The notes under the pieces were generated by a model, which had not been told where the DNA came from, did not search any database, and saw only the letters and a program-made list of their open reading frames with translations. Of a stretch of 64,000 bases of DNA, positions 7,981 to 64,000 are shown piece after piece (position 1 is the stretch's first letter; every line of letters starts with the position of its first letter). Source of the DNA: Plasmopara viticola (lineage: Eukaryota > Oomycota > Peronosporomycetes > Peronosporales > Peronosporaceae). The stretch spans positions 682,001 to 746,000 of the forward strand of contig MBPM02000026.1 of NCBI GenBank assembly GCA_001695595.3, read 5' to 3'. The position numbers were made by a program, and so were the translations under genes.

Positions 7981-8399
7981 AGTCTTTTCGCAGCTTGTCG
8001 AGCTCCTCGTTACGGCTTGTTAGGAGCTCAGCAGTATCGATGAACGTATTTGTGGGTTCACGAGTCCTTCATTTTCCCATACAACAAAGCCAGACAAAAC
8101 AGCTCAGAAGTATTAAATGTGGATCAAGCAAAGCCAAGTGGGTAGCTTATTTGTATGTTATTATCCAATAACACCATAAGGCAAAAGCACAAAATCAAAG
8201 ACCAACTAAGAAGCTCCAGATAAATGTACCACACTAGCGTGCAACCGCACCAATCAACCACTGAACGTTAACTTTATGCTCCAAGCCAACCTTTGTAATC
8301 TAGTACTTCCCATTATATGGCTCGTATCAATAATTACAGGATGTCTCGCTTCTCACTATGTGATCACGAGCAAACTTGTTTTGAACTTTTGGACTTGAC

Positions 8400-8790
8400 A
8401 CGGCAAGTGTTTCTATGTCGCGGAAGATGCTGATTAAGGTCGGTTTTTGTACAAGGCTGAGGCGCGGGCGAGGTAAAATCGTAGAAGAGGAGGAGTATTT
8501 GTTGCTCAAAGCAAATTGAGAAGTGATAATTAATGAAGAACTCTTACGACATACTTCTTGATACAGCCTAGGTGGTGGCTCTCACCCATCTACTTCCACC
8601 ATCTTTAAAGTCATCATTCTTCAGCATTCCACTTGGGTTTTACAAATATAAATTTCTTTAGCTTATATGGTCTCTTGGTTTCCAATGGTTACGGGACATT
8701 CGGAATTATCGGAAACTGTATAAATATGTATTTTGGAGATATTTTATTTTTTGCGTAAAAGCCGTTACCGGCAGAACAGGGTCACGTCAG
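8400..8790 (-). repeat. 5' LTR of the gypsy element
   Basis: Direct repeat partner of 5100-5505, preserving the same word order (GCTGAGGCGCGG, GATACAGCCT, GGTGGCTCTCA, CGGAAACTGTATAA, GCGTAAAAGCCGTTACCGGCA). It lies upstream of pol on the minus strand. Confidence 0.8.
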
Positions 8791-13029: not shown

Positions 13030-13123
13030 AATCGCTACTTTTTAAACTTCATGAATCCTAACCACAATTTAATGTATTTGACACAACTCATCATGATCTT
13101 ATTTGCTTGGCCCGTGGTACTCA
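13030..13123. promoter_or_regulatory. Bidirectional intergenic promoter, EZH2 / RPC3
   Basis: Only 94 bp separate the EZH2 ATG (13029, minus) and the RPC3 ATG (13124, plus), so both must start from this stretch or from within the neighbouring gene. No clear TATA box or initiator can be claimed. A diverged copy of the whole interval, including EZH2 exon 1 bases, lies at 63795-63905, and shorter copies precede each array unit. Confidence 0.6.
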
Positions 13124-29791: not shown

Positions 29792-30072
29792 TGTTGAAGG
29801 TAAGGCTGTGGCTGTGTGCAATGTGTATGTTTCTGCATGTAAAGGTATTTCGGTAAGATACCGGTAGGGTACCTGTATATGACGTCAAATGATGACAGCA
29901 TTAGAATGACGTCGTATGATGACGTCAGACGATGACGTCAGAAGCTTCTAGAAGATACTAAGCTTAGACGTAGATGTGGTGCGAACTAAGTCTTAGAATT
30001 ACACTTTGATTTTACCTCTTCGATCACAAGCCGTCTTCAACGTAATCCTCTGCGTCCATTAGACCTTTAAGA
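29792..30072 (+). repeat. 5' LTR of the copia element (281 bp)
   Basis: Nearly the same as 34049-34335 apart from scattered substitutions and small indels. It includes the repeated TGACGTCA-like words at 29880-29940 (several TGACGTC motifs, resembling CRE/bZIP sites) and the shared ACCTCTTCGATCACAAGCCG. Confidence 0.93.
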
Positions 30073-30076
30073 GGTT

Positions 30077-34048: not shown

Positions 34049-34335
34049 TGTTGGAGATGATGCTGTGGCTTTGTGTAATGTGTATGTTTCTGCATGTAAA
34101 GGTATTTCGGTAAGATACCGGTAGGGTACCTGTATATGACGTCAAAGATGATGATGACAGCATTAGGGTGACGTCATATGATGACATCAGACAATGACGT
34201 CAGAAGCTTCTAGAAGGTTCTAAGCTTAGACGTAGTAGTAGTGCGAGCTAAGTCTTAGTAATTCTTTTATAATTTTACCTCTTCGATCACAAGCCGTCAT
34301 CAATGTATTCTTCTGCGTCCAATAAATCTTTGAGA
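34049..34335 (+). repeat. 3' LTR of the copia element (287 bp)
   Basis: Direct repeat of 29792-30072, bounded on the right by the GCTGC target duplication at 34336-34340. It has a few extra bases (for example GATGATGATGACAG) compared with the 5' LTR. Confidence 0.93.
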
Positions 34336-34340
34336 GCTGC

Positions 34341-45059: not shown

Positions 45060-45655
45060 CGGCGCCTTCAGATAAGCGGTGCCATCAAATTAAAAGGGAA
45101 GCATTTGTGGTACTTAAATTCGCTGAAAATTACTTGACTGTTAATTCTATGAACATTTAGCGATGTGATACAAAATGTCCACATGCGATATGAGCATTTC
45201 TTCCACGCCATCGTTGTTGGTTTTGACATGGTGGTTGGAATATAAGTATTACTGTCATGCAAAGGCTAACAATCTCAGTACCTAGAAACTTTGACGAAGC
45301 AGACTACCTTAGCGAACATTTAATATAACCGAAATTTACGGTGCATGTTGTTTTAATAAAGTGTCAAACGCGTTTGTTATGAAACTGTCTGTATATTACT
45401 ACTGGTTGTCATTATTTTTTTACTTCCTTTTTCACTTAGTATATTATTCAGAGACCTTAGTGATCAATCTGGGCTGTTTCCCTCTTGACAAAAGACCTTA
45501 GCGCCTGATGTCTGTCTATTTAAATAACGTTTTTTTGTATTCGTCTATTTTTTGATGATTTTTTTAGCCTAAAAAGTGTTATCTTTTTTTTGATTGCCAT
45601 CTAGAGGTTACTAATGTTATCTACAAAAAGTGATAAATGAGCGCGTCAGAGACTG
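45060..45655 (+). pseudogene. Decayed tail-anchored-family gene convergent to GRASP
   Basis: Collinear with the array gene 52856-53399. 45130-45190 (CGATGTGATACAAAATGTCC) matches the CEVMENV coding part, 45190-45260 the VGF..GGWN part (TGGTGGTTGGAATAT), and 45290-45335 (CGAAGCAGACTACC ... CCGAAATTTACGG) the AAYF..PKFK end. After the intron region, GATTGCCATC with TTATCTACAAAAAGTG at 45592-45635 matches exon 2 through the stop, and GCGCGTCAGAGACTG the 3' flank. Stops interrupt the frame. It lies on the plus strand, pointing at the GRASP gene, in the same order as in every array unit. It therefore marks the original neighbourhood of the ORF-GRASP segment, though this copy itself is dead. Confidence 0.7.
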
Positions 45656-45905: not shown

Positions 45906-46162
45906 AGCAAAAAAGTTAGCAAAGAAAACAATGGGCGGAAGCACATCCGCCTGTTGGATGAGATTGTAGACTACTGATGCAGCTCGTTACGCTTCTGTCA
46001 TCCCTAGCAACGGCTACAGCTACTAAAAGGCTGTCGTTCATCACCTGATTCAACATGCATTTCGAATAATAAACCTGACATTTTCTTAGCACGAATGGAA
46101 ACAACAAAACCCAATGTTGGGAGATACGAGCAATTTGACGATAGTTTTTGCAACACAACTTT

Positions 46163-47465
46163 TTATGGGTCTACGAGAACAGCAACGGTCGAAATGGGAA
46201 ATTGGTGATCCATACGCACCACGTATCTAGGATTTGCACTTGGAGCAATCGTTTGTGCAGCTTGCCCGGTTGTTTCACTGGCTAAACTTGCATCATCTCG
46301 TTTCTGATTTTGTGAGTGCTCACCACCTTTCTGACTTGCCTCACTTGACAGCACGCTCTCACGAGTCATTCTTACTGGTGTTAAAGACGACTGATCACCA
46401 AAAATAGAATCTTCGCTTTGCTTCTCGTCCTTGCAGCTGATTGTATTCACTAGAGTGCTATCACTGTGTCGCTGAGGCTTTACTGGAATACACAAATCAC
46501 CATACAAATTAGACCAAACGCAGAAAGAGATTACAATATCTTACAAAAAGCGTCTGTGGCAGCCTTAACATCTTCAGGAAGATTGATAAAGCCCACGGAA
46601 GAGCCGATGGTACTCCGGCAAGTACTTGGAAGTCGATGAAGATAGCCATGACCAACTTCAGCTCCTAAAACACCTTCACCTTGCCATTGTTTACTTAAAA
46701 TAATTGACACGATGCGAACCTGGTCTTCTAAAGAGCTAGAAATCTTTAAATCAATTTCTCGTGAATTTGCTCATGCGTAAATAAGATGCACTCACTTATA
46801 CACATAGCACTGAAACGATCCATCAAGAGCGTCCATAATCTCGTCGTGCAAATCCTCCGCATCCGCAAAGACACGCTCAGGCGTGCCTAAAAGATAGTCA
46901 GAATTAGCGCGAAGCTTTGCACGCTCGGCCGGCGACGATGTTGCCACAGACTACAATAAAGTATTGTAAGGTATTGTGAGAACATCATGATGTAATGAAT
47001 AGGAGTACGGCTTGTAAGAGGACGTACAAGTACGTGTAGTAACTGGTCCTCAGCTCCTTCGTACGAGTCAAAGCGAACAGTGACGCCGAGCAAACCTTTT
47101 CCCGGCCACTTTCGACTAGGTGTAAGCAACAGCTCTCGCATGGTCTGCGCCTTGACATTAAACACTCTCAGCTGCATAGGCCGGTCTTCACTTTGCGCAA
47201 TGAGTTCCATAAACGTGGCATCTTTCGTGTCCTGGCGATGCAAGCAATTGATTAGGAACAATGTTGCGTGGTGATGATCTGCGCCTACCAGTCGGATGCC
47301 ATTTGCCTCAAGGATAAAGTCGAAAAAGCTCACAAAGCCAACGGCCGAGGCCGGTGACATCTCCTGAATACCCAGTACACGAAAGCCACAGCATTCGCCG
47401 CCCTGTACAGCGTCATTGCTTAAGTGAGATACCTCATCCATCAGCGTCGAATTTTCATTGCCCAT
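46163..47465 (-). CDS. GRASP55/65 family Golgi reassembly-stacking protein
   Basis: Golgi peripheral membrane protein that links cisternae through paired PDZ-like domains and also works in unconventional secretion. Four exons in phase (47028-47465, 46796-46950, 46545-46735, 46163-46482) give 367 residues. Gly2 in MGNENS is a myristoylation site, as in the family. PDZ1 covers about 22-110 (GECCGFRVLGIQEMSPAS, FFDFILEANGIRL) and ends GKGLLGVTVRFDSYEGAED. PDZ2 continues across exons 2-3 (SPAERAKLRANSDYLLG, DGSFQCYVYN, WQGEGVLGAEVGHGYLHRLP). The rest is the usual Ser/Gln-rich tail. It is apparently intact. Its exons 2-4 and 3' flank are the donor of the GRASP pieces in the array to the right, and part of exon 1 also occurs in the copy at 3470-4720. 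Confidence 0.92.
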
Positions 47466-48420
47466 TCCGAACTACTAAGTAATCATACTATACAAGATGC
47501 ATTTAGCCCAACACTAAGTACGATTTAAATAAAGGCGGCGTCTAAAGTTCTCAGTGAAGAAAAAGTCTCCGCACAGTGTGCTAGGAAGAACGAAAGTTAT
47601 TAAATGTATTCATTATTTCATCATTGAACATACGAGTCGCTAAATCAATGTGCATGGGAAATCAGAATTTATAGCATGATTCTGCTCAACGCACAAGGGT
47701 AGGCAACAACACGCGGTGCAAGTCGCCATCCCTCATACTCATACAAGAGGTGTCAGAACAATGAGCTATTCATCACTTGTCCCAACAAGGTTATCTATTC
47801 AAAAGTTCCTCAGGAAAAACAGCCAGTTTATATCCTCATTCTTCTTCGGACGGTAATTCCAAAACAGTGTTGGACATCACTGGAACATTTGGGGCTATAA
47901 GGCTATAGGTCAATCTCTTGCCTATGCAAGATACATGAAATTGTCGGAATGGCACAAAGTCTACGTGCTAAGCAACAGTGTTCGCCACCACTGAATAATA
48001 GCTGCGTTGATTGGCTTAAAAAATGGGTAATTACGCTAAGTAAAAACGAAATCTCATAATATCAATAGTGTTCCGCTTTATAGTACTATATGTAGTAGAA
48101 CTTTAGCATCTAATACAGTGACGTATTGACATATATAGGACGTCATTATTGAGCATAGTATATTACCGTCTAGTAGTAGTACTTAAGTACGTCAATGTTC
48201 CATACTATGAGTCTCGAATTGGCTTGCATTTTATAAGCAAGCACCGGCACTTAGGGGTGTGAAAATAAACACAGAGATTGTTCATAGCTATCTGACCCAT
48301 GCTGACCCCGGGCTCCAAAATTCTCATCACACCGTAAGACTCGAAAGGGCGTCCAGACCACCCAACTATTACGCAACCCATTTTCGGAAATTGGAGCGAT
48401 CTCACGTATGCAGCTTATGT
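47466..48420. other. Intergenic sequence between GRASP and the array
   Basis: Presumed GRASP promoter near 47470-47600. The rest holds no recognisable gene. Two overlapping short minus ORFs at 48205-48457 have no domain. Confidence 0.5.
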
Positions 48421-49045
48421 TTGAGCCTTTGTACCGATTGCGGTTCCCCAAATTCATTGATTGGCAAAGAAACTTTTGAATCGAGGGTGAATTGGGGATG
48501 GAGGAGGTGCTGGTACAGGGACGTGTGCGTTTAAATCAGTCGCTGGAGACAATGGCCTACAATTAAGCGGAACATCAAGGTCGGAATCAAAAGTTAGAGA
48601 CCTAGAAAGGCGAAGCTGGTGAGGAGGAGGTGGACTAAGAAAAACTTGACAAATGCCGCTATTTAGTGCGTGGGATGTTTGTGAAAAGTATCAAGAAGCG
48701 CTGCACTTTGCGGGTACATCCGCTGCACTTAAAGTTGACGGAGGCTAGAGGGACCCTAGACTCTACTGCGAGTATCACAGATGGACAGAATGAAAGTACG
48801 ATGATAGATTTGAATGGCGAATAGGCGGCAACTGGAACCGGCACAAATGCGAACAGTGGCAATAATAGAGGAACAACTGTTGATGAGAACGGCTTTTCAG
48901 TGCGTGGTCAAACTCGAAAGACAACATTGCTGTCGTAAAAAACGCAGCCCAGTGGAGCTGCAAATGATGTTGGATGCTGATAAAGCATCTCGTAAGGAAA
49001 ATGACGACGCGGAAACCGAATTTGGCTTCGTTGTCAATGTCTTCA
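48421..49045 (+). pseudogene. RPC3 exon 3 fragment (unit B)
   Basis: Matches 13595-14240: CTTTGTACCGATTGCGGTTCC, the GAGGTGCTGGTACAGGGACG block, and CTGCAAATGATGTTGGATGC near 48958. Stops and frameshifts throughout (for example ATTAAGCGG at 48561). It runs directly into the GRASP fragment. Its left end marks the array edge. Confidence 0.85.
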
Positions 49046-49785
49046 CGTGTCGCCGGCTGGGCGTGCAAAGCTTCGAAGTGGTTCTAGCTCCTCTCTAGGC
49101 AGGCCGGAGTGCCTTTGCAAATGCTGAGGATCTGCACGACGATGTTCTGGACGCTCGTGATGAATTGTTTTTGTGCTATGTGTTCAAGTGAGTGCAACTT
49201 CGTTGAGTATGAGCGGGTTGACAAACAATTTGATTAGACTTTTTGGCTTCTCAAAAGACCAAGTTTGCATCGCGTGAAATGTTTTGGCTGAACAATGGGA
49301 AGGTGAAGGTCTTTTAAATGCTGAAAATGGTCATGGCTATTTCCATTGACTTTCGACAATTTGGAGTAGTATCGTCAGCTTTTTAAAAGACGCCAGGACA
49401 GCCACAAGTGCCATTTGTAATGGCATTCTACATTTGATGGTCCAATCTGAGTAATGCTTTGTGCATTTCAGTAAAGCCTCACCGACACATTCGTAACACT
49501 TCAGCGACTTCAATTCGCTACGAGCACGAAATGCAGAGCGACGATTTGAATTTTGGTGACCAATTCGAGAAATGGCTTGAGAGACCGTGCTGTCAAGCAG
49601 AGTAGGTCAGAAAGTTGATAATTACAAAAGTAGAGACGAGACGATGCAAGTCAAGACACTGAAACTTCTGGACGAGCTGCCAAGAAATCGAGTACCCTAT
49701 GCGCGAATACTATCGATGTGGTGCCTTTGGATCACCGACATCTCATTCGACCGTTGCTGTGCTTATAGACCTATAAACGATGTGA
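49046..49785 (+). pseudogene. GRASP 3'-half fragment (unit B, inverted)
   Basis: In gene-sense orientation on the plus strand: the GATGCTGAGGATCTGCACGACG-like block near 49115 matches GRASP exon 2 (46830-46865 reversed). The AAAGCCTCACCGACACATTC block near 49480 matches exon 4, and the match ends near the GRASP stop at about 49785. Introns are present and the frame is broken. Confidence 0.8.
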
Positions 49786-50214
49786 AGCAAAAATCATCGT
49801 CAAATCGCAAAAACGCAAAGAATCTTATACTTTTTTCGCACCTTCTATCACTAGTGGTTCCGTTTTGTAGCTTTCAGTCGTGCACATACAATGTCGGATA
49901 GATCATTCAAAGGCTGCTCAAATAATCGAGTGATAGATGACAGCCTGTAGCTGTTGCTTAGGATGACATAGCACAGCAGTCTTCGAACTCACCGAACAGG
50001 CAAACGTATTTTTTGTGTCGCAAGACTGTGCGTTGCTTATAGAAAATAATGCAGGAGGACAAGAGGCATAAGCAAAGGTAAAAGACCGAATAAATTTGTT
50101 TTTTGTTAGAAATTGCTGTTCTGAAGTACTAAATCAAAGGCAATGAAAGTAATGAGAATCAAGCAAGTAACAAGCAAAAGCTTAGAAGACAAACCAACCA
50201 CATCCTCTGTGCTT

Positions 50215-50781
50215 TCAGTATCCAATCTTCGTAGACATTATCAAGCTGACGATGGCAACCACGAGAGCGAGAAATGCGACTACATTCGCGATGATCCATC
50301 TCCATAGCCTAAACCATAGCGAATCCTGCGTTACAAAATGAGACACTCTTTCTACATATCCAGCCAGACATTCAAATAAGACACTCGTTCGAGTACTGCA
50401 AGTGCTCTGTCTAGATTTCACGTACCTTAAATTTCGGTTGAATTGGATGGTCTTGAAGTAGGCTGCTACGTTGAAATCTTCAGGTCTTTCTTTTGGCAGC
50501 ATTTCCGAGACGCAAGTTTTCATATTCCAACCACCTTCTCCGCCTTTGAAACCAACACAGATGCCTTGAAACAATCGACCATATCGTTTGTTGACATTTT
50601 CCATGACTTCGCAAAATCTTGATGAGATTGGCAGCGTAACCGGATACTCTGTACCATTAACGTCACAAACCCAGACTTCAACATCGATATCGTCCATCGA
50701 GGCTGCTTGCGAGTTGTTGCTCTGAATGCTATAGTCCGCGTCAGGTGAATTGGGCTGTTCAATCGCGGCGTGGATTGTCAT
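50215..50781 (-). pseudogene. Small tail-anchored gene, unit B, with one-base deletion
   Basis: Exon 1 is 50426-50781 and exon 2 is 50215-50325, with the same splice positions as unit D. A single base is missing in the codons after AAYF (near 50446), which breaks the spliced frame. Unexpectedly, the unspliced sequence is then open right through the 100-bp intron into the correct exon 2 frame. This gives a 231-residue frame from 50910 that still ends in the membrane segment (WIIANVVAFLALVVAIVSLI). It may be a pseudogene or a form translated from unspliced RNA. Confidence 0.6.
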
Positions 50782-50944
50782 GTTGCTTTTCTGAAGAATT
50801 TTGTTTGATTGAAGTACCAAAGTACACCCTTTCAAAGTCGATGATGACCTTGGCATCATATTTTTTAGAAGCATTTTTACCGACCGGAATGGCGATTTTA
50901 GAAAGAACACAAACCTATGAAGAAATTCACCATTATCCTTTTTA

Positions 50945-51985
50945 GCTAACCGTGGTACCTAAGCGAGAAAATGGTGGCGTTCGCCTTGCGTTTGCAATGC
51001 GTGCTGTTGCCACTTGTCGTAGCAGATTATGTAGTTGAGACTCTGTTGCACTCTGAATGACTGCAAGTCTAGACTACCGCGACGTTCTCGGCGCCATCAA
51101 TGCCCAAGATGGTATCATTGCTACATTTGAAAATGTTTGTTGACGAAAATTAAAAATGGCATTCTGTGTTTACATTAGACCAAGTGTGCCGTGCTGCAGC
51201 ACAACGTTCTAGACGTGACGCACGAACCTGAGGCTCGAGGCGGTCAGTACTTCTACACATTCCTAAAATGTGCGTTCTTCAATTTCTTTCTAAATTTGTG
51301 ACAAAGCCTCCTTCACGTTAATCTGTGAGTGGCAGATTAAGGTGTAGGAGGCTTTGTACCGATTGCGTTTCTCCAAATTCATTGATTGGCAATGAAAATT
51401 TTGAATTAAAAGCGAAGTGATCATGGAGGGAGTGCTGAAACAGGATTGTTTGAGTATCATTCGCTGGATACAATGCCTAAGATTGAGCGGAGCTTTAGCG
51501 TCGATAGTAAAGTTGAAAACCCTGGAAGGTGAAGGTGATGAGAAGGAGTTGGGCGAAGATAAGTTGACAAATGTCGCTATTTAGTACGCGAGGTAGTTGT
51601 GAAAATGGCCAAGAAGCGCTACGTTTCTCGAGAACGTCCGCTAAAGTGAAGTTAGCGAAGGCTGAAGAGACCTTAGACATAATGCGAGTATCACTGATGG
51701 ACAGGACAAAAGAACGATGCAAAATTCAATTAGCAGATCGGCGGCCACGTCGACTGAAAGTGGCACGAATGTGAACAGTAGGAATAAAAGAGGAACAGCT
51801 GTTAATGAAATTGAATTTTCAGTGTGTGGTTAAGCTCGATTGACAACAACGCTGACGTCAAAAAAAGCACCTCAGTGAGGCTGCAATTGATGTTGGACGA
51901 TAATGTAGCAGCTCATAAGAAAAAAACGACTCATAAGCCAAATGGGAACCTTATTTGGCTTTGTCGTTAACGTCTTCACGTGGCA
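50945..51985 (+). pseudogene. RPC3 5'-half fragment with introns (adjacent to unit B)
   Basis: Starts just upstream of the RPC3 ATG position (CGTGGTACC at 50950, GCGAGAAAATGG) and follows RPC3 exon 1, intron 1 (GGTATCATTGCTAC near 51110), exon 2 (ACCAAGTGTGCCGTGCTGC, CAGCACAACGTTCTAGACGTG), intron 2, and exon 3 from GTGGCAGATTAAGG (51330) to about 51985. Intron retention shows a DNA-level copy. Many stops. Confidence 0.85.
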
Positions 51986-51989
51986 TCAC

Positions 51990-52742
51990 CCTTAACAACG
52001 GCTACATCTACTTAAGGGCGGTTGTTTATCACTTGATTCTTCGAATGATCTTTTTGTCATTGTATGCGAACGAATAAGGCATAAAACAAATCATCAGTGA
52101 AAATAGATGCGAGAAAAGTATCAGTCTCCATGTACGTGCAATTTACATTTTTTGCAACACGTCGATTTATGGGCTTACCAGCAGAGCAACGGTTCGAATT
52201 GAAATTGGTGATCCTATGCGCCACGTATCAAGGATGCTTGCATGAGGCGATCTCTTTTGTAGCTACTTCGATGACTTAGTGGTAAAATTTATGACATCGT
52301 GTTTCAGCTTCATCTCTTTTCTCACCTTCTTCACTTGACTGCACGTTCTCTCAGCTGCTGTTGAACTGACTTGGTCGCCATATACAAAATCTTCGCTTTG
52401 CATTTTGTGCTCGCAGCTAATTGTCATCATCAAAGTGTAATAAATGAGTTGTGAGATTTTACTGGAATGCACAGAGCACCGCACGAACTCGACCAGGACT
52501 ATATGCGAACAAAAGCTACAATACAAGGTCATCTTCCAAAAGGCATCTGTGGCTGCCGTGGCGTCTTTGTAAATTGACAAATCCCACGAAAAACTAACGG
52601 TATTCCAGCAAATAATCAGAGATAGCCTTGGCCAACTTCAGCTCGAATAACGCCGTCACCTTTATGTTGTTCAGTCAAAGCATTCGGCACGATGAAATCC
52701 GTTTTTTTTCTTCTAAATTCCTCTACCATCGTAGCTGGTGCT
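51990..52742 (-). pseudogene. GRASP 3'-half fragment after the inversion point
   Basis: Begins in the GRASP 3' flank (ACAACGGCTACATCTACT, compare 46008) and continues through exon 4 (52170-52480) and exon 3 (52530-52720, with GATAGCCTTGGCCAACTTCAGCTC). It is in the same orientation as the functional GRASP gene. Its left border at about 51985-51990 is where the array changes direction. Confidence 0.8.
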
Positions 52743-52855
52743 AGTATCGAGAACGCAAGTGAGTTTTTTTAAGTAAAACTGATGCCAAGGTCATCATCGA
52801 CTTTGAAAGGGTTTACTTTTATGGTACTTCAATTTCTCCAGAATTCCACTTGACA

Positions 52856-53399
52856 ATGCAAGCCGCAATTGAACAGCCCAATTCACCTGGTGCGGACCAT
52901 AAAATCCATGTCGACCCGATGGACAATCACGATGTTGAAGTCTGGGTTTGTGACGTTAATGGTACAGAGTATCCGGTTACGCTGCCAATCTCATCAAGAT
53001 TTTGCGAAGTCATGGAAAATGTCACCAAGCAATATCGGTTGTTCCAAGGCATCTATGTTGGTTTCAAAGGCGGAGAAGGTGGTTGGAATATGAAAACTTG
53101 CGTCTCGGAAATGCGACCAAAACAAAGACCTAAAGATTTCAACGTAGCAGCCTACTTTAAAGACCATCCAATTCAACCGAAATTTAAGGTACGTGAAATC
53201 TAGACAGAGCACTTGCAGTACTCGAGCGAGTGTCTTATGTGAATGTCTGGCTGGATATGTAGAAAGAGTGTCTCATTTTGTAACGCAGGATTCGCTATGG
53301 TTTAGGCTTTGGAGATGGATCATCGCGAATGTAGTCGCATTTCTCGCTCTCGTGATTGCCATCGTTAGCTTGATAAAGTCTACGAAGATTGGAGACTGA
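52856..53399 (+). CDS. Unrecognised tail-anchored protein, unit D (apparently intact)
   Basis: Exon 1 (52856-53188) and exon 2 (53289-53399) join in phase across a 100-bp intron (donor GTACGT, acceptor AACGCAG) to a 147-residue protein. The N-terminus is MQAAIEQPNSPG, then a soluble domain of about 90 residues with EVWVCDVNGTEYPVTLPISS, FCEVMENVTKQY and VGFKGGEGGW. Exon 2 encodes a C-terminal membrane helix, WIIANVVAFLALVIAIVSLI, and a short polar tail KSTKIGD, the layout of a tail-anchored membrane protein. If the intron were not spliced, the protein would end five codons later at KVREI without the helix. The start codon lies about 110 bp after the GRASP fragment. I know no family with this signature. 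Copies sit in every unit; D and E are the only ones without frame damage. Confidence 0.6.
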
Positions 53400-53840
53400 A
53401 CGCACAGAGACTGCGGTTGGTTTGTCTTCTAAGCTTTTGCTTGTTACTTGCTTAATTCTCATTACTTTTAATTGCCTCTGATTTCGTACTTCAGAACAGC
53501 AATTTCTTACAAAATGTATTTGTTCGGTCTCTTATCTTTGCTTATGCCTCTTGTCTTCCTGCATTATTTTCTATAAGCACCGCACAGTGTTGCTTAGGAT
53601 GACATAGAACAGCAGTCTTCAAACTCATCGAACAGGCAAACGTATTTCTCGTGTCGCAAGACAGCCACACGCTGTCATTTATCACTCGATTATTTGAGCA
53701 GCTTTTGAATGATTTTTTCGACGCTGTTGATACACGACTGAAAGCTACAAAACGGAACCACTAGTGATAGAAGGTGCGAAAAAAGTAAAAGATTCTTTGC
53801 GTTTTTTCAATTTGACGATATTTTTGCTTCACATCGTTTA
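53400..53840. repeat. Unit 3' tail with micro-inversion (unit D)
   Basis: Noncoding tail shared by all units (ACGCACAGAGACTGCGGTTGG ...). At about 53588-53650 the block TTGCTTAGGATGACATAG to CAAACGTATTT is the reverse complement of the same block in units B, F and G. Confidence 0.75.
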
Positions 53841-53841
53841 T

Positions 53842-54540
53842 AGGTCTATAAGCACAGCAACGGTCGAATGAGATGTCGGTGATTCAAGGCACCACAGCGT
53901 GAGTATTCGCGCATACAGTACTCGATTTCTTGGCAGCTCGTCCAGAAGTTTCGGTGTCTTGACTAGCATCGTCTCGTCTCTAATTTTGTAATTGCTCACC
54001 AACTTTCTGACCTGCTTTACTTGACAGCACGGTCTCTCAAGACACTTCTTTTGTTGTTGAAATCGACTTGGTCACCAAAATTCAAATCTTCGCTCTGCAT
54101 TTCGTTCTTGTAGCGAATTGAAGTCGCTGAAGTGTTACAAATGTGTCGGTGAGGCTTTACACAAACCATCATTCCGATTAGACCACTAAATGTAGAATAC
54201 TATTACAAAGGGCATTTGTGGCTGTCCAGGCGTCTTTTGAAAGAGCTGACGATACTTGTGTAAATAGTCGAAAGTCAAGAAATAGCCATGACCATCTTCA
54301 GCATTTGAAAAACCTTCATCTGGTCCTTTGAAAAGACCAAGAGTTTCTAATTAAATCGTATACAACACGCTCATACTCAACGAAGTTGCCCTCACTTTAA
54401 CACATAGCACAAAAACAATTTATCACGAGCGTCCAAAACCTCATCGTGCAGATCCTCAGCATTTGCAAAGGCACTCCGGCCTGCCTAGAGAGCAGCTTGA
54501 ACCACTTTGAAGCTTTGCACGCCCAGCCGGCGACGCGTGA
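53842..54540 (-). pseudogene. GRASP 3'-half fragment (unit D)
   Basis: From the GRASP stop region (GTCTATAAGCACAGCAACGGTCG) through exons 4, 3 and 2 (CATCGTGCAGATCCTCAGC near 54447) to the fusion with RPC3. Frames are broken by substitutions and indels. Confidence 0.8.
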
Positions 54541-55535
54541 AGACATTGACAACGAAGCCAAATTCGGTTTCCGCGTCGTCATTTTCCTTACGAAAAGCTT
54601 TATCAGCATCCAACATCATTTGCAGCTCCACTGGAATGCGTTAATTTACGACAGCATTGTTGTCTTTCGAGTTTGACCACGCACTGAAAAGCCGTTCTTA
54701 TCAACAGTTGTTCCTCTATTATCGCCACTGTTCGCATTTGTGCCGGATCCAGTTGACGTGGCCGCCGATTCGCCATTCAAATTTATCATGGTACTTTCGT
54801 TCTGTCCATCTGTGATAGCCGCAGAAGAGTCTAGGGTCTCTTCAGCCTCCGTCAACTCTAAGTCCAGCGGATGTACCCGCAAAGTGCAGCGCTTCTTTAT
54901 ACCTTTCACAAACATCCCACGCACTAAAAAGCGGCATTTGTCAAGTTTATCTTAGCCCACCTCCTCCTCACCAGCTTCGCCTTCCTGGGTCTTTAACTTT
55001 TAATTCCGACCTTGATGTTCCGCTTAATTGTAGGCCATTGTCTCTAGCGACTGATTCAAACGCACACGACCCTATACCAGCACTTCCTCTATGACCTTTT
55101 CGCCTTCGATCTAAAAACTTCTTTGCCAATCAATGGATTTGGGGAACCGCAATCGGTTTAAAGTCTCCTTCATCTTAATCTGCCACTCACAAAACATTCA
55201 CTTCTGTCACAAATGAAAATAAAAATTGAAGAACGAACATTTTAGAAAACTGTAGAAGTATTGACTGCCTCGAACCACAGGTTTATGCGTCACGTCTAGC
55301 ACGTTGTGCTGCAGCAAGGCACACTGCGTCTGATGTAAACACAAATTGATTTCTTTAATTTTCGTCGACAAACATTTTCAAAATGTAGCAATGATACCAT
55401 CCCGTGCGTTGACGGTGCCGAGAACGTTGGAGTAGTCTAGACTTGCAGTCATTCAGAGTGCAACAGAGTCTCAACTACATTATCTGCTACGACAAGTGGC
55501 ACCAGCGCTCGTTCGATTTTCTCGCTTGGTACCAA
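54541..55535 (-). pseudogene. RPC3 5'-half fragment (unit D)
   Basis: Antiparallel copy of RPC3 14240 to 13124: exon 3 down to about 55180, intron 2, exon 2 near 55280 (CACGTCTAGCACGTTGTGCTGC) and intron 1/exon 1 to 55535 next to the promoter remnant. Stops in every frame. Confidence 0.82.
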
Positions 55536-55682
55536 GGCCAGCAAAAATAGGATAATGGTTAAGCTTCGGTGTTTTTTTTGAAAAAACTCCTTTACGATCG
55601 GTTTTCTTATGTGCTTGCTTTGTCGGTCTGGTCAATAGTGGTACTTCAATCAAACAGAATTCTCCAGAAAGGCCACTTGACA

Positions 55683-56244
55683 ATGCAAGCCGCAATTGAA
55701 CAGCCCAATTCCCCTGGTTCGGACCATAGATGCCAGAATGACACCTCGCTAGCAGCCCCGATGGACAATCACGATGTTGAAGTCTGGGTTTGTGACGTTA
55801 ATGGTACAGAGTATCCGGTTATGCTGCCAATCTCATCAAGATTTTGCGAAGTCATGGAAAATGTCAACAAGCGATATGGTCGATTGTTTCAAGGCATCTG
55901 TGTTGGCTTCAAAGGCGGAGAAGGTGGTTGCAATACGAAAACTTGCGTCTCGGAAATGCTGCCAAAAGAAAGACCTGAAGATTTCAACGTAGCAGCCTAC
56001 TTTAAAGACCATCCAATTCAACCGAAATTTAAGGTACGTAAAATCTAGACAGAGCACTTGCAGTACTCGAACGAGTGTCTTATGTGAATGTCTGGCTGGA
56101 TATGTAGAAAGAGTGTCTCATTTTGTAACGCAGGATTCGCTATGGTTTAGGCTTTGGAGATGGATCATCGCGAATGTAGTCGCATTTCTCGCTCTCGTGA
56201 TTGCCATCGTTAGCTTGATAAAGTCTACGAAGATTGGAGACTGA
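55683..56244 (+). CDS. Unrecognised tail-anchored protein, unit E (apparently intact)
   Basis: Exons 55683-56033 and 56134-56244 join in phase to 153 residues. It has the same domain order as unit D, with a slightly longer N-terminal linker (DTSLAAPMDNHDVEVWVCD) and an exon 2 product identical to D, including the membrane helix. Substitutions relative to D fall mainly in exon 1 (for example GICVGFKGGEGGCNTKT and PKERPEDFNVAAYF). The start used is the ATG in ACAATGCAAGCCGC, which is conserved in D and in the old copy at 3474. An upstream in-frame extension exists (MFFLKKLLYDRFSYVLAL) but is not conserved between copies. It lies about 150 bp from the position of the RPC3 pseudogene start, with which it is head to head. 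Whether it is expressed is unknown. Confidence 0.6.
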
Positions 56245-56687
56245 ACGCACAGAGACTGCGGTTGGTTTGTCTTCTAAGCTTTTGCTTGTTACTTGCTTAA
56301 TGTTCATTAATTCTAATTGCCTTTAATTTCTCGTACTTCAGAACAGCAATGTCTTACAAAATATATTCATTCGGTCTTTTGCCTTTGCTGATGCCTCTTG
56401 TCTTCCTGCATTATTTTCTATAAGCACCGCACAGTGTTGCTTAGGATGACATAGAACAGCAGTCTTCAAACTCATCGAACAGGCAAACGTATTTCTCGTG
56501 TCGCAAGACAGCCACACGCTGTCATTTATCACTCGATTATTTGAGCAGCTTTTGAATGATTTTTTCGACGCTGTTGATACACGACTGAAAGCTACAAAAC
56601 GGAACCACTAGTGATAGAAGGTGCGAAAAAAGTAAAAGATTCTTTGCGTTTTTTCAATTTGACGATATTTTTGCTTCACATCGTTTA
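56245..56687. repeat. Unit 3' tail with micro-inversion (unit E)
   Basis: Nearly identical to 53400-53840, including the inverted block, so D and E share a recent common copy. Confidence 0.75.
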
Positions 56688-57385
56688 TAGGTCTATAAGC
56701 ACAGCAACGGTCGACTGAGATGTCGGTGATTTAAGGCACCACAGCGTGAGTATTCGCGCATACAGTACTCGATTTCTTGGCAGCTCGTCCAGAAGTTTCG
56801 GTGTCTTGACTAGCATCGTCTCGTCTCTAATTTTGTAATTGCTCACCAACTTTCTGACCTGCTTTACTTGACAGCACGGTCTCTCAAGACACTTCTTTTG
56901 TTGTTGAAATCGACTTGGTCACGAAAATTCAAATCTTCGCTCTGCATTTCGTTCTTGTAGCGAATTGAAGTCGCTGAAGTGTTACAAATGTGTCGGTGAG
57001 GCTTTACACAAACCATCATTCCGATTAGACCACTAAATGTAGAATGCTATTACAAAGGGCATTTGTGGCTGTCCAGGCGTCTTTTGAAAGAGCTGACGAT
57101 ACTTGTGTAAATAGTCGAAAGTCAAGAAATAGCCATGACCATCTTCAGCATTTGAAAAACCTTCATCTGGTCCTTTGAAAAGACCAAGAGTTTCTAATTA
57201 AATCGTATGCAACACGCTCATACTCAACGAAGTTGCGCTCACTTGAACACATAGCACAAAAACAATCCATCAAGAGCGTCCAGAACCTCATCGTGCAGAT
57301 CCTCAGCATCCGCTAAGGCACACTCAGGCGTGCTTAAAGAGGAGTTGGAACCGACTCGAAGCTTTGCACGCCCGGCCGTCGACCC
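56688..57385 (-). pseudogene. GRASP 3'-half fragment (unit E)
   Basis: Nearly the same as 53842-54540 up to about 57200. The last part (CACACTCAGGCGTGCTTAAAG) belongs to the sequence type of units F and G rather than D. Confidence 0.8.
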
Positions 57386-58405
57386 ATGAAGACGTTGACA
57401 ACGAAGCCAAGTTCGGTTTCCGCGTCGTCATTTTCCTTACGAGCTGCTTCATCAGCATCCAACATCATTTGCAGCTCCACTGGGATGCGTATTTTGACGT
57501 CAGCGTTGTTGTCTTTCGAGTTTGACCACGCACTGAAAAGCCGTTCTCATCAACAGTTGTTCCTCTATTATTGCCACTGTTTGCATTTGTGCCGATTCCA
57601 CGTGGCCACCGGTTCGCCATTTAAATCTATCATCGTGCTTCCGTTCTGTCTTTCTGTGATACCCGCAGAAGAGTCTAGGGTCTCTTCAGCCTCCGTCAAC
57701 TCAAGTCCAGCGGATGTACCCGCAAAGTGCAGCGCTTCTTGACACTTTTCACAAACATCCCACGCACTAAATAGCGGCATTTGTCAAGTTTTTCTTAGCC
57801 CACCTCCTCCTCACCAGCTTCGCCTTCCTGGGTCTTTAACTTTTACTTCCAACGCTGAAGATCCGCTCAATTGAAGGCCATTGTCTCCAGCGACTGATCC
57901 AAACGCACACGTCCCTGTTCCAACATTTTCTCCATGACCTTTTCGCCTTCGATCTAAAAACTTCTTTGCCAATCAATGTATTTGGGGAACCGCAATCGGT
58001 TCAAAGTCATCTTCACCTTAATCTGCTACTCACAAAACATTCACTTCTGTCACAAATGAAAGTAAAAATTGAAAAACGCACATTTTAGAAAACTGTAGAA
58101 GTACTGACTGCCTCGAACCACAGGTTTATGCGTCACGTCTAGCACGTTGTGCTGCAGCAAGGCACACTTGGTCTAATGTAAACACAGAATGTTTCATGAT
58201 TTCTTTAATTCTCGTCAACAAACATTTTCAAAATGTAGCACTGATACCATCTTGTGCATTGATGGTGCCGAGAACGTCGCGGTAGTCTAGACTTGCAGAC
58301 ATTCAGAGTGCAACAGAGTCTTAGCTACATTATCTGCTACGACAAGTGGCACCAGCGCGCGTTGCAAATGCGAGGCAAACGCCACCATTTTCTCGCTAGG
58401 TACCA
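57386..58405 (-). pseudogene. RPC3 5'-half fragment (unit E)
   Basis: Antiparallel copy of RPC3 14240-13124 with both introns. It ends near CATTTTCTCGCTAGGTACCACG, the position of the RPC3 start and upstream region. Not translatable. Confidence 0.82.
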
Positions 58406-58575
58406 CGGTTAGTTAAAAAAGGATAATGGTGAATTGTATTAGAGGTTTGTGTTCTTTCTAAAAAACGCCACTCCGGTCGGTATTCAGTATGTGCTTGCTT
58501 TAAAAATGCTTCATCGACTGTGGAAGGGTGTACTTTCAGGTACTTTAATCAGAAGAAATTCTTCAGAAAGGCAAC

Positions 58576-59130
58576 ATGACAATGCACGCCGCGATTCCAA
58601 TTCACCTGGCGAGGACTATAGCATTCAGAACAACAACTCGCTAACAGCCTCGATGGACGATATCGATGTTGAAGTCTGGGTTTGTGACGGTAACGGTACA
58701 GAGTATTCGGTCACGCTGCCAATTTCATCAACATTTTGCGAAGTAATGGAAAATGTCACCAAGCAATATCGATTGTTCCAAGGCATCTATGTTGGTGTGA
58801 AAGGCGGAGAAGGTGGTTGGAATATGAATACTTGCGTCTCGGAAATGCTGCCAAAACAAAGACCTTATATTTTAACGTAGCAGCCTACTTTAAACACCAT
58901 TCAATTCAACCGAAATTTAAGGTACGTGAAATCTAGACAGAGCACTTGCAGTACTCGAGCGAGTGTCTTATGTGAATGTCTGGCTGGATATGTAGAAAGA
59001 GTGTCCCATTTTGTAACGCAGGATTCGCTATGGTTTAGGCTTTGGAGATATTAATCGCAAATGTAGTTGCATTTCTCGCTCTCGTGATTGCCATCGTTAG
59101 CTTGATAATGTCTACGAAAATTGGATACTG
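58576..59130 (+). pseudogene. Small tail-anchored gene, unit F (frameshifted)
   Basis: A 7-bp deletion after the MHAAI codons (58597) shifts the frame, and a second change after PKQRP (58862) ends the downstream frame early. Exon 2 has a deletion that brings a stop (GGAGATATTAATCG at 59043). A 143-residue composite frame from 58449 still shows the conserved core (DVEVWVCDGNGTEYSVTL). Confidence 0.75.
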
Positions 59131-59570
59131 AACGCACAGAGACTGCGGTTGGTTTGTCTTCTAAGCTTTTGCTTGTTACTTGCTTAATTTTCATTAATTC
59201 TATTTGCCTTCAACTTCTCGTACTTCAGAACAGCAATTTCTTACAAAATATATTCATTCGGTCTTTTGCCTTTGCTGATGCCTCTTGTCTTCCTGCATTA
59301 TTTTCTATAAGCAACGCACAGTCTTGCCACAAAAAATACGTTTGCCTGTTCGATGAGTTCGAAGACTGCTGTGCTATGTCATCCTAAGCAACAGCTACAG
59401 GCTGTCATTTATCACTCGATTTTTTGAGCAGCCTTTGAATGATCTATCCGACATTGTAAGTGCACGACTGAAAGCTACAAAACGGAACCACTAGTGATAG
59501 TAGGTGCGAAAAAAGTATAAGATTCTTTGCGTTTTTGCAATTTGACGATGATTTTTGCTTCACATCGTTT

Positions 59571-60275
59571 ATAGGTCTATAAGCACAGCAACGGTCGAAT
59601 GAGATGTCGGTGATCCAAAGGCACCACATCGATAGTATTCGCGCATACGGTACTCGATTTCTTGTGCAGCTCGTCCAAAAGTTTCAGTGTCTTGACTTGC
59701 ATCGTCTCGTCTCTAATTTTGCAATTGCTCATCAACTTTCTGACCTGCTTTACTTGACAGCACGGTCTCTCAAGACATTTCTTTTGTTGTTGAAATCGAC
59801 TTGGTCACCAAAATTCAAATCTTCGCTCTGCATTTCGTGCTTGTAGCGAATTGAAGTCGCTGAAGTGTTACAAATGTGTCGGTGAGGCTTTACACAAACC
59901 ATCATTCCGATTAGACCACTAAATGTAGAATGCTATTACAAAGGGCATTTGTGGCTGTCCAGGCGTCTTTTGAAAGAGCTGACGATACTTGTGTAAATAG
60001 TCGAAAGTCAAGAAATAGCCATGACCATCTTCAGCATTTGAAAAACCTTCATCTGGTCCTTTGAAAAGACCAAGAGTTTCTAATTAAATCGTATGCAACA
60101 CGCTCATACTCAACGAAGTTGCGCTCACTTGAACACATAGCACAAAAACAATCCATCAAGAGCGTCCAGAACCTCATCGTGCAGATCCTCAGCATCCGCT
60201 AAGGCACACTTAGGCGTGCTTAAAGAGGAGTTGGAACCGACTCGAAGCTTTGCACGCCCGGCCGTCGACCCATGA
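59571..60275 (-). pseudogene. GRASP 3'-half fragment (unit F)
   Basis: Same content as 56688-57385, with very few differences. The tail before it (59131-59570) keeps the ancestral orientation of the block inverted in D and E. Confidence 0.8.
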
Positions 60276-60920
60276 AGACGTTGACAACGAAGCCAAGTTC
60301 GGTTTCCGCGTCCTCCTCCTCACCAGCTTCGCCTTCCTGGGTCTTTAACTTTTACTTCCAACGCTGAAGTTCCGCTCAATTGAAGGCCATTGTCTCCAGC
60401 GACTGATCCAAACGCACACGTCCCTGTTCCAACATTTCCTCTATGACCTTTTCGCCTTCGATCTAAAAACTTCTTTGCCAATCAATGTATTTGGGGAACC
60501 GCAATCGGTTTAAAGTCTCCTTCACCTTAATCTGCTACTCACAAAACATTCACTTCTGTCACAAATGAAAGTAAAAATTGAAAAACGCACATTTTAGAAA
60601 ACTGTAGAAGTACTGACTGCCTCGAACCACAGGTTTATGCGTCACGTCTAGCACGTTGTGCTGCAGCAAGGCACACTTGGTCTAATGTAAACACAGAATG
60701 TTTCATGATTTCTTTAATTCTCGTCAACAAACATTTTCAAAATGTAGCACTGATACCATCTTGTGCATTGATGGTGCCGAGAACGTCGCGGTAGTCTAGA
60801 CTTGCAGACATTCAGAGTGCAACAGAGTCTTAGCTACATTATCTGCTACGACAAGTGGCACCAGCGCGCGTTGCAAATGCGAGGCAAACGCCACCATTTT
60901 CTCGCTAGGTACCACGGTTA
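60276..60920 (-). pseudogene. RPC3 5'-half fragment with 370-bp internal deletion (unit F)
   Basis: Compared with unit E, the stretch corresponding to 57427-57800 is missing: GGTTTCCGCGTC joins directly to CTCCTCCTCACCAGC at 60301-60325. The rest equals 57804-58405 almost base for base. Confidence 0.82.
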
Positions 60921-61084
60921 GTTAAAAAAGGATAATGGTGAATTGTATTAGAGGTTTGTGTTCTTTCTAAAAAACGCCACTCCGGTCGGTATTCAGTATG
61001 TGCTTGCTTTGAAAATGCTTCATCGACTGTGGAAGGGTGTACTTTCAGGTACTTTAATCAAACAAAATTCTTCAGAAAGGCAAC

Positions 61085-61640
61085 ATGACAATGCACGCCG
61101 CGATTCCAATTCACCTGGCGAGGACTATAGCATTCAGAACAACAACTCGCTAACAGCCTCGATGGACGATATCGATGTTGAAGTCTGGGTTTGTGACGGT
61201 AACGGTACAGAGTATTCGGTCACGCTGCCAATTTCATCAACATTTTGCGAAGTAATGGAAAATGTCACCAAGCAATATCGATTGTTCCAAGGCATCTATG
61301 TTGGTGTGAAAGGCGGAGAAGGTGGTTGGAATATGAATACTTGCGTCTCGGAAATGCTGCCAAAACAAAGACCTTATATTTTAACGTAGCAGCCTACTTT
61401 AAACACCATTCAATTCAACCGAAATTTAAGGTACGTGAAATCTAGACAGAGCACTTGCAGTACTCGAGCGAGTGTCTTATGTGAATGTCTGGCTGGATAT
61501 GTAGAAAGAGTGTCCCATTTTGTAACGCAGGATTCGCTATGGTTTAGGCTTTGGAGATGAATTATCGCGAATGTAGTTGCATTTCTCGCTCTCGTGATTG
61601 CCATCGTCAGCTTGATAATGTCTACGAAAATTGGATACTG
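61085..61640 (+). pseudogene. Small tail-anchored gene, unit G (frameshifted)
   Basis: Shares with unit F the 7-bp deletion and the change after PKQRP, so both are one lineage. Exon 2 carries its own stop (GGAGATGAATTATCG at 61553). Confidence 0.75.
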
Positions 61641-62079
61641 AACGCACAGAGACTGCGGTTGGTTTGTCTTCTAAGCTTTTGCTTGTTACTTGCTTAATTT
61701 TCATTAATTCTATTTGCCTTCAACTTCTCGTACTTCAGAACAGCAATTTCTTACAAAATATATTCATTCGGTCTTTTGCCTTTGCTGATGCCTCTTGTCT
61801 TCCTGCATTATTTTCTATAAGCAACGCACAGTCTTGCCACAAAAAATACGTTTGCCTGTTCGATGAGTTCGAAGACTGCTGTGCTATGTCATCCTAAGCA
61901 ACAGCTACAGGCTGTCATTAATCACTCGATTTTTTGAGCAGCCTTTGAATGATCTATCCGACATTGTAAGTGCACGACTGAAAGCTACAAAACGGAACCA
62001 CTAGTGATAGTAGGTGCGAAAAAAGTATAAGATTCTTTGCGTTTTTGCAATTTGACGATGATTTTTGCTTCACATCGTT

Positions 62080-62834
62080 TATAGGTCTATAAGCACAGCA
62101 ACGGTCGAATGAGATGTCGGTGATCCAAAGGCACCACATCGATAGTATTCGCGCATACGGTACTCGATTTCTTGTGCAGCTCGTCCAAAAGTTTCAGTGT
62201 CTTGACTTGCATCGTCTCGTCTCTACTTTTGTAATTGCTCATCAACTTTCTGACCTGCTTTACTTGACAGCACGGTCTCTTGAGACATTTCTTTTGTTGT
62301 TGAAATCGACTTGGTCCCCAAAATTAAATCGTCGCTCTGCATTTCGTGCTCGTAGCAAATTGAAGTCGCTGAAGTGTTGCGAATGTGTCGGTGAGGCTTT
62401 ATTGGAATACACAAACCATTACTCAGATTGGACCACCAAATGTAGAATGCCATTACAATTGGCATTTGTGGTTGTCCAGTCGTCCTTGAAAGAGCTGACG
62501 ATACTTGTGCAAATAGTCGAAATTCAATGGAAATAGCCATGACCATCTTCGGCATTAAAAAGACCTTCATTTTTTCATTGTTCAGCCAAAATATTTCACG
62601 CGATGCAAACCTGGTCTTCTGAAGTAGTCAAGAGTTCCTAACTAAATCTTTTGTCAACCCGCTCATACTCAACGAAGGTGCACTCACTTTGACACATAGC
62701 ACAAAAACAATTCATCAAGATCGTCCATAACCTCATCGTGCAGATCCTCAGCATTTGCAAAGGCACACTCAGGCGTGCCTAAAGAGGAGTTCCAGCTCTC
62801 TCGAAGCTTTGCACGCCCGGCCGGCGACCCATGA
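62080..62834 (-). pseudogene. GRASP 3'-half fragment (unit G)
   Basis: Identical in type to unit F up to about 62275, then switches to a less eroded sequence (62280-62834). This part keeps an open minus frame of 115 codons at 62223-62570 whose end reads like the GRASP tail (SSKAGQKVDEQLQK) and includes LCIPIKPHRH. This is a mosaic of two unit types. Confidence 0.8.
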
Positions 62835-63795
62835 AGTCGTTGACAACGAAGCCAAATTCGGTTTCCGCGTCGTCAATTTCCTTACAAGCTGCTTCATCAG
62901 CATCCAACACCATTTGCAGCTCCACTGGGATGCGTATTTTTACGTCAGTGTTGTTGTCTTTCGAGTTTGACCACGCACTGAAAAGCCGTTCACATCAACA
63001 GTTGTTCCTCTATTATTGCCACTGTTCACATTTGTGCCGGTTCCAGTCGACGTGGCCGCCGATTTGACATTCAAATCTATCATCGTACTTTCGTTCTGTC
63101 CATCTGTGATACTCGCAGGAGAGTCTATAGTCTCTTTAGCCTCCGTCAACTCTAAGTCCAGAGGATGTACCCGCAAAGTGTAGCGCTTCTTGATCCCACG
63201 CACTAAATATCGGCATTTGTCATGTTTATCTTAGCCCACCAGCTTCGCCTTCCTGGGTCTTTAAGTCTTGATTCCGACCTTGATGTTCCGTTTAAGTGTA
63301 GGCCATTGTCTCCAGCGACTGATTCAAACGCACACGTCCCTGTTCCAGCACTTCGTCCATGATCACTTCGCCCTCGATTCAAAGGCTCTTTTGCCAATCA
63401 ATATATTTGGGGTATCGCAATCGGTTCAAAGTCTCTTCCACCTCAATCTGCCACTCACAAAACGATCACTTCTGTCTCAAATTGAAAAAAAATTGAAGAA
63501 CGCACTTCTTAAAAAACTGTAGAAGTACTTACTGCCTCGAAATACAGGTTCGTGCGTCACGTCTAGCACGCTGTGCTGCAGCAAGGCACACTTGCTCTTT
63601 ACATTAGCAACGTAAACACAGAATGTATCATGATTTGTCAACAAACATTCTCAAAGTGTGGTTCCGAGAACATCGCGGTAGTCTAGCCTTGCAGCTCTCC
63701 AGAGCGCAACAGTGTCTTAGCTACATTTTCTGCTATGACAATTAGCACCAGCGCGCGTTGCAAATGCGAGGCAAATGCCGCCTTTTCCTCTCTGG
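62835..63795 (-). pseudogene. RPC3 5'-half fragment (unit G)
   Basis: Antiparallel RPC3 copy. It keeps open pieces such as an 87-codon frame at 62940-63203 (VHPLDLELTEAKETIDSPAS), which corresponds to RPC3 residues around 170-230. Exons 1-2 and the introns follow to about 63795. Confidence 0.82.
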
Positions 63796-63905
63796 ATTTC
63801 ACGGCCAGCGAATGAAAGATAATGGTGGGTTTCGTTTAGAATTTGTGGTTTCTGGTAGTGACTCTGTCGCGAAGTGATGAGCATCTGGGCCGCAAGCGGC
63901 ACGCC
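63796..63905 (+). pseudogene. EZH2/RPC3 promoter and EZH2 exon 1 fragment (array right edge)
   Basis: Continues from the RPC3 start through the intergenic spacer into GATGAGCATCTGGGCCGCAA at 63875-63894, matching the first codons of EZH2 exon 1 (13022-13000 reversed). In the other units this point has been replaced by the small gene. After about 63905 the match ends. Confidence 0.7.
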
Positions 63906-64000
63906 CCATATGACAGCTCCGCCGACCTTTGCAATTTAAACCACATTACTTTCATTGCTCACACTTGTTCTGAACCCCTTATAAATCTGTTGAGCTATGC
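63906..64000. other. Unassigned right edge
   Basis: About 95 bp of sequence with no match found elsewhere in the window. Confidence 0.4.

Follow-up and report, generated by a model that had tools for sequence, protein, structure and literature searches.

A mosaic array of RPC3, GRASP and EZH2 fragments around a small conserved gene in Plasmopara viticola

We analysed a 64,000-nucleotide stretch of the Plasmopara viticola genome (contig 26, positions 682001-746000; hereafter the window) and the array of gene fragments that begins in it at 48,410 and runs, in our sensitive map, to ~71,370 (71367) in window coordinates, 7.4 kb past the window end. The array appears to be a patchwork, in which pieces of RPC3, GRASP and EZH2 were attached to a small conserved gene (SG) and then multiplied. 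It is probable that the whole represents a mosaic segmental duplication built around SG, with a tandem core in which the SG copies of two units, U2 and U3, are possibly live. Genome searches covered 92,937,831 bases in 358 contigs; the INRA-PV221 assembly is described by Dussert et al. 2019 as a pseudo-haploid sequence of 92.94 Mb in 358 scaffolds, or 359 according to its abstract, built from PacBio reads of mean length 8,072 bp at 185x coverage (PMC6660063). The mating-type locus, considered as a possible setting of the window, has been placed on pseudochromosome 7 in a published account.

From left to right the array reads RPC3 (+), GRASP (-), SG (-), RPC3 (+) joined to a second kind of GRASP piece, GRASP' (+), then SG (+), GRASP (+) and RPC3 (-). 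This last RPC3 piece belongs to U2 and is followed by three further units (U3-U5), each SG (+), GRASP (+), RPC3 (-), and by a right end consisting of EZH2 (-), a Copia element, EZH2 (-), GRASP (-), SG (-) and GRASP' (-). Altogether one RPC3-GRASP joint (J1) occurs five times, a sixth RPC3 piece has a different joint, and SG is present in six copies; the units are 2.5-2.9 kb long. A reading made earlier from the sequence alone had described units composed of the GRASP 3' half, the inverted RPC3 5' half and a convergent small gene, and the sensitive map bears this out. Its limits for the array, 48421 to 63905, proved too narrow, as further pieces of EZH2, SG and GRASP, with the Copia element between them, extend to 71.37 kb. 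The head-to-tail order that it proposed holds for the four units U2-U5 and fails for the leftmost 1.5 units (48.4-52.0 kb), which are inverted.

The self-alignment suggested in that reading as a check gave collinear matches to both donors. Self-BLAST aligned the array with RPC3 at 13.13-14.24 kb (main matches 70-78% identity, E down to 1.9e-174) and with GRASP at 46.13-46.94 kb (66-71%), the latter extending to 45.94-46.96 kb in a more sensitive run. The best score among 100 Markov-shuffled donor pairs was 33.5 bits, against 228-560 for the 12 main and 44-54 for the 5 minor real matches. RPC3 intron 2 is kept in five of the six RPC3 pieces, the sixth being truncated before it; the GRASP intron at 46745-46796 is kept in 5/5 units, and that at 46491-46541 partly so (38 of 51 positions, again in 5/5). 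As had been argued, the presence of introns wherever a piece extends to them excludes processed (retroposed) pseudogenes, and the sequence indicates duplication at the DNA level.

The joints between pieces carry much of the history. J1, which links RPC3 ~14240 to GRASP ~46950, is present in all of U1-U5 and hence points to a single founder. At a second joint (J2) the RPC3 promoter side meets a point ~0.1 kb upstream of the SG start; it precedes U1, U3, U4 and U5, and the SG of U2 lacks it, being preceded by a GRASP piece. A ~10 bp deletion that removes the RPC3 start codon is common to five of the six pieces, that is, to all that reach it. In the units the RPC3-proximal part of the EZH2/RPC3 intergenic region can be recognised, and divergence has gone too far for the EZH2-proximal part to be called; the right end is the only place where an RPC3 piece continues into the 5' part of EZH2. 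Identity among units is 89-99% for SG, 89-98% for GRASP and 80-97% for RPC3, while identity to the parents is ~78% for unit RPC3 pieces (74% for the extra piece, L51) and 72-74% for unit GRASP pieces. Up to ~59.7 kb U4 matches U5 at 98-100%, and from ~59.9 kb onwards it matches U3 at 98-100%; we read U4 from this pattern as a recent unequal crossover product of U5-like and U3-like units. With five stops in the majority consensus of the five unit pieces and 3-6 in each single piece, the RPC3 pieces read as dead passengers; the GRASP pieces are presumably dead passengers as well, as their 5' half is absent.

SG is likely the only living part of the array. In the array gene a 74-nt intron lies between ...HPIQPKFK and KECLIL. 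Frame, splice donor, splice acceptor and the KECLIL CaaX end are all kept in U2 and U3; the same end, identical to that of the Phytophthora infestans protein, is also found in U1. The SGs of U1, U4 and U5 are frameshifted, those of U4 and U5 reading CPIL, and the right-end SG has lost its splice donor and contains a stop. When the P. infestans protein was used as query, the best genome matches were U2 (58%) and U3 (57%), and no other intact SG was found, in a search that scores exon by exon and considered the best candidates only. An SG-like match on contig 26 at 621 kb (40%) is free of stops over its aligned length, but its N-terminal part falls in a different frame and no stop follows its CaaX-like cysteine. 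The copies on contigs 13, 15 (two) and 2 have no frame over 82 codons. Based on these comparisons, U2 and U3 are the best candidates for a live SG in the genome, their expression being putative.

A single SG frame had no match as a protein-database query, whereas an alignment of the copies did. A profile of the copies retrieved 8 proteins (E<=0.1) and a broader one retrieved 28 (E<=0.01), with relatives in P. infestans, P. fragariae, P. fragariaefolia, P. rubi, P. lilii and Pythium insidiosum. A C-x-x-L end is present in 6 of the 23 relatives fetched (KECLIL, RECVIL, KDCIIL three times, KECLLL). Most others end in KVRRV or a comparable sequence shortly beyond the exon-1 border, and we read these as unspliced models. 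SG belongs, as judged from the spliced models, to an oomycete family with a C-terminal CaaX box and putative prenylation. Its fold is probably ubiquitin-like, resembling plant MUBs; no MUB/UBL3 match in Pfam was found for SG at E<=10, nor a PDB sequence match at E<=1. A 347-aa model in P. fragariae, PF008_g18618, has two SG domains, which suggests tandem SG copies in that genome as well. Several earlier ideas were set aside. An SG with a C-terminal transmembrane exon (219-aa frame, 50215-50874) was dropped because relatives show exon 2 to be the short CaaX exon; the nonsense test on that wrong exon gave 2 new stops against 0.9 expected. A Crinkler-like resemblance seen by eye had no Pfam support, and a first structure model (6 sequences, pLDDT 47) was not used.

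Whether SG is alive is also the sole point that separates the mosaic duplication from an overlapping alternative in which everything is junk, the SG copies are dead too and the frames of U2 and U3 have stayed open by chance during neutral decay. The nonsense test found 0 stops against 4.0 expected in 102 gap-free codons (P=0.016), and changes avoided family-invariant residues at p<0.05 in two of nine pairs (0.014, 0.025). Among the 29 residues invariant in the relatives used, U2 keeps 23 and U3 keeps 24. A number of results weigh against a live SG. The nonsense test gave 1 stop against 4.4 expected on 120 codons (P=0.061) and 0 against 2.35 when the right-end copy was left out (P=0.089), with 3 against 4.9 and 6 against 5.9 in the other frames; the remaining pairs gave p=0.063-0.367 for avoidance of invariant residues, and p=0.25 pooled; U2 and U3 depart from the family at 6 and 5 of those 29 residues; SG has no codon-position bias; and dN/dS is 0.45-0.69 for comparisons between units and 0.79-1.15 for those with the right-end copy, compared with 0.62-1.07 for dead RPC3 pairs. 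We read this mixed evidence as constraint on SG that is weak or recently relaxed. The weakness of the selection tests, the frameshifts in three of the five unit SGs and the right-end copy with its stop and lost donor are what all-junk decay would give; the intact frame, donor, acceptor and KECLIL end of U2 and U3, identical to the P. infestans end, and the finding of no other intact copy in the genome search speak for a live gene. We regard decay of the whole array as possible, and as the less favoured outcome.

A more far-reaching idea, which we consider unlikely, is that the ancestral locus of a conserved CaaX ubiquitin-fold gene has disappeared and the gene persists in the chimeric array alone, where the captured EZH2/RPC3 divergent promoter (Polycomb/Pol III subunit) may drive a membrane-anchored ubiquitin-like protein and the inverted halves could give double-stranded RNA against RPC3. 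Four of the five unit SG copies lie at the EZH2 side of that promoter. Between 48410 and 64000 we found exact matches of at least 19 nt to parental RPC3, five on one strand and 12 on the other and up to 37 nt long, and none to parental GRASP or EZH2.

The mosaic duplication may have arisen as follows. SG would originally have been convergent to GRASP, and SG with the GRASP 3' half would have been duplicated several times, in early events whose order we infer. Beside the GRASP 5' side, two SG-GRASP blocks in opposite orientation would then have gained between them a ~2.3 kb EZH2-RPC3 segment from ~50 kb away, perhaps by break repair with template switching. A tandem duplication would next have joined the RPC3 promoter side to SG at J2, unequal crossover would have multiplied the unit, a local inversion would have flipped the leftmost 1.5 units, and Copia would have inserted into the EZH2 piece. 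This departs from the sequence-only reading, which had just two fragments joined: EZH2 is included, and the EZH2-RPC3 segment is flanked by SG-GRASP blocks in opposite orientation. An origin of the small gene from an intact neighbourhood near 45.0 kb is likewise unsupported. The SG copy at 45.1-45.4 kb, 66-68% identical to unit SGs over ~200 bp, has a stop and is a degenerate, dead relic, hence not a live donor, and other SG-GRASP blocks exist. Trees place the right-end SG as the closest outgroup to the SGs of the units, and L51, parental RPC3 and the unit RPC3 group join at one node. Some observations fit this history poorly. At 51985 a third joint (J3) has, within ~5 bp, the same RPC3 breakpoint as J1 but another GRASP partner, a reuse for which the model gives no explanation. 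Identity between the GRASP' copies L52 and R70 is 68%, against 81% between the SGs next to them, and the trees leave the GRASP' copies, parental GRASP and other blocks unresolved, so that it is uncertain whether the two are mirror arms of one event.

The earlier proposal was a circular or tandem intermediate. If fragments had been joined into an extrachromosomal circle, copied by rolling-circle amplification and returned to the chromosome head to tail, the order of U2-U5 and their one shared joint would be as expected. The units are, however, unequally diverged (80-99% identity), U4 has the mosaic make-up that unequal crossover gives, the leftmost 1.5 units run in the opposite direction, and RPC3-EZH2 continuity persists in the right-end unit. 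Step-wise tandem duplication accounts for the same data, and with the mosaic U4, whose switch at ~59.7-59.9 kb fits unequal crossover, tandem duplication and unequal crossover suffice without a circle, which we consider improbable.

SG with GRASP is also found outside the array, in blocks 24 kb before the window, at 3.5 kb and 45 kb, and on contigs 13 and 2. Contig 28 has a GRASP piece alone (in the 4.5 kb read) and contig 15 has SG alone, twice. These counts are lower bounds, with blocks on at least 3 contigs. The GRASP piece of contig 13 is broken at ~47020, and its 5' part lies inverted on the opposite side of SG, an arrangement such as one inversion would give. Such dispersal, together with several intron-bearing gene fragments per unit, is what gene capture by a transposon of the Pack-MULE or Helitron type followed by tandem insertion might leave. 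Helitron ends have the form TC...CTRR with a 3' hairpin. In agreement with the sequence-only reading, no Pfam transposase was present among a selection of open reading frames that was scanned, and no terminal inverted repeat was seen in three regions tested: the inverted repeats found there were all imperfect, 14-23 nt long and 73-93% complementary, and short or decayed termini could be missed. The SG-GRASP blocks, moreover, terminate at different GRASP positions (~46405 to 47478). We consider transposon capture quite improbable. An assembly artefact, whether a haplotype or a repeat mis-join, is hardly credible: the assembly of a heterozygous diploid as pseudo-haploid, a mean PacBio read of 8.1 kb against a 23-kb array and a U4 that could be a haplotype mosaic would allow it, but the units differ by 1-20%, U4 has its own RPC3 deletion, the Copia insertion is at the right end only, and units of 2.5-2.9 kb are well below the mean read length at 185x coverage (PMC6660063).

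The mosaic duplication resembles known systems. In primate LCR16a/NPIP core duplicons, as outlined in PMC7419210, a gene-bearing segment occurs at several sites with varied flanking gene fragments, mosaics and possible fusions, and here the same SG-GRASP segment lies at several loci with different flanks. Core duplicons span tens to hundreds of kb, whereas the oomycete blocks are 1-3 kb, and the parallel does not extend to expression or positive selection of the core gene, as SG is known here from sequence. As in tandem arrays shaped by unequal crossover, a mosaic unit, U4, switches between the sequences of two neighbouring units. Complex inverted duplications, in the accounts of ODIRA inverted triplication (PMC10766186) and DUP-TRP/INV-DUP (PMC4352052), likewise have opposite-orientation segments with a distant segment between, later rearranged. 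In contrast to those, the event here is old, with RPC3 pieces ~78% identical to their parent, so that microhomology at the joints is no longer reliably readable. The MUB/UBL3 membrane-anchored ubiquitin-fold proteins (PMC4996978) share a C-terminal CaaX box with SG. In the literature searched we found no description of the array or of the SG family (multi-copy oomycete small CaaX proteins) and no paper naming PITG_09909; the main text of PMC6660063 contains none of the terms tandem, segmental, pseudogene or chimer.

The mechanism is ordinary and unusually legible. The array is a compact record of mosaic duplication growth in a filamentous plant pathogen, and the positions of its founder joint, its tandem joint, the crossover unit and the inversion can all be pinpointed. 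A further outcome is a family of small CaaX proteins, multi-copy in oomycetes, with a likeness to the MUB/UBL3 regulators of ubiquitination. The case also suggests that a conserved gene can come under a new promoter through the turnover of such arrays.

Table 1. Features of the array, its parental genes and a dispersed block, in window coordinates (positions above 64000 lie beyond the window)
Feature	Position	Strand	Basis or remark
Decayed SG-GRASP block, no RPC3 seen	3514-5087	+	sensitive map
EZH2/RPC3 divergent intergenic region, parental	13031-13123	.	93 bp between start codons, read from sequence
RPC3 (POLR3C) 5' half, parental, source of RPC3 pieces	13124-14241	+	start 13124; breakpoint near 14240 common to J1 and J3
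SG degenerate relic adjoining real GRASP	45138-45423	+	sequence, P. infestans protein query
GRASP 3' half, parental	45939-46956	-	start codon near 47465
U1 (inverted) RPC3 piece, parental 13575 to ~14240	48410-49045	+	sensitive map
U1 GRASP piece	49028-50011	-	sensitive map
U1 SG, frameshift near exon 1 end, CaaX exon kept	50137-50870	-	sequence
Extra RPC3 piece L51, parental 13133-14245	50962-51985	+	sensitive map; joined to GRASP ~45998 (J3)
GRASP' piece (L52), parental 45998-46732	51986-52717	+	sensitive map
U2 SG, intact	52856-53283	+	exon 1 52856-53188, 74-nt intron, exon 2 53263-53283, ends KECLIL
U2 GRASP piece	53808-54555	+	sensitive map
U2 RPC3 piece	54562-55494	-	sensitive map
J2, RPC3 promoter side fused to SG upstream region	55495-55682	+	
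U3 SG, intact	55683-56128	+	exon 1 55683-56033, intron 56034-56107, exon 2 56108-56128, ends KECLIL
U3 GRASP piece	56655-57404	+	sensitive map
U3 RPC3 piece	57386-58405	-	sensitive map
U4 SG, frameshifted	58509-59211	+	CPIL in place of CLIL
U4 GRASP piece	59334-60290	+	holds U5-like to U3-like switch
U4 RPC3 piece	60292-60914	-	internal deletion
U5 SG, frameshifted	61018-61721	+	CPIL
U5 GRASP piece	61844-62849	+	sensitive map
U5 RPC3 piece	62856-63795	-	sensitive map
Right end, start (inside window)	63796-64000	-	
EZH2 piece, first	64022-64393	-	beyond window
Copia element inside EZH2 piece	64396-68832		beyond window
EZH2 piece, second	68835-69046	-	beyond window
GRASP piece, right end	69075-69164	-	beyond window
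SG inverted, right end	69560-70320	-	beyond window
GRASP' piece (R70)	70556-71367	-	beyond window

The parental genes themselves were identified by domain matches. RPC3 has a POLR3C winged helix match (E 4e-23), and no second full copy was found in the genome search. The EZH2 exon at 10381-10953 matches EZH2 chains (E 1e-26), with two Pfam matches just below cut-off. GRASP has a GRASP55/65 match (E 8e-22), and the two genome matches above the family cut-off are both exons of the single parental gene. A tRNA scan and an Rfam scan of the window at gathering threshold were both empty, and a scan of viral contigs with RPC3 gave no match.

The element at 64396-68832 has long terminal repeats (LTRs) of ~140 bp with 89% identity to each other. 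In the sequence TGAAG can be read on either side of it, and its integrase and Pol domains are Copia-like; we take it to be Copia from its domain order. The same family also adjoins the SG-GRASP block on contig 13. Beside the two SG copies of contig 15 lie duplicated blocks (L045, 5359-9346; L046, 4748-10000) that are 68-94% identical and partly inverted. A dispersed repeat family at 5110-5878 and 8068-8723, also present on contig 26 beyond the window and on contig 15, perhaps represents LTR retrotransposon remnants, judged by eye. Finally, a 288-bp direct repeat, 87% identical, occurs at 29792-30073 and 34049-34336.

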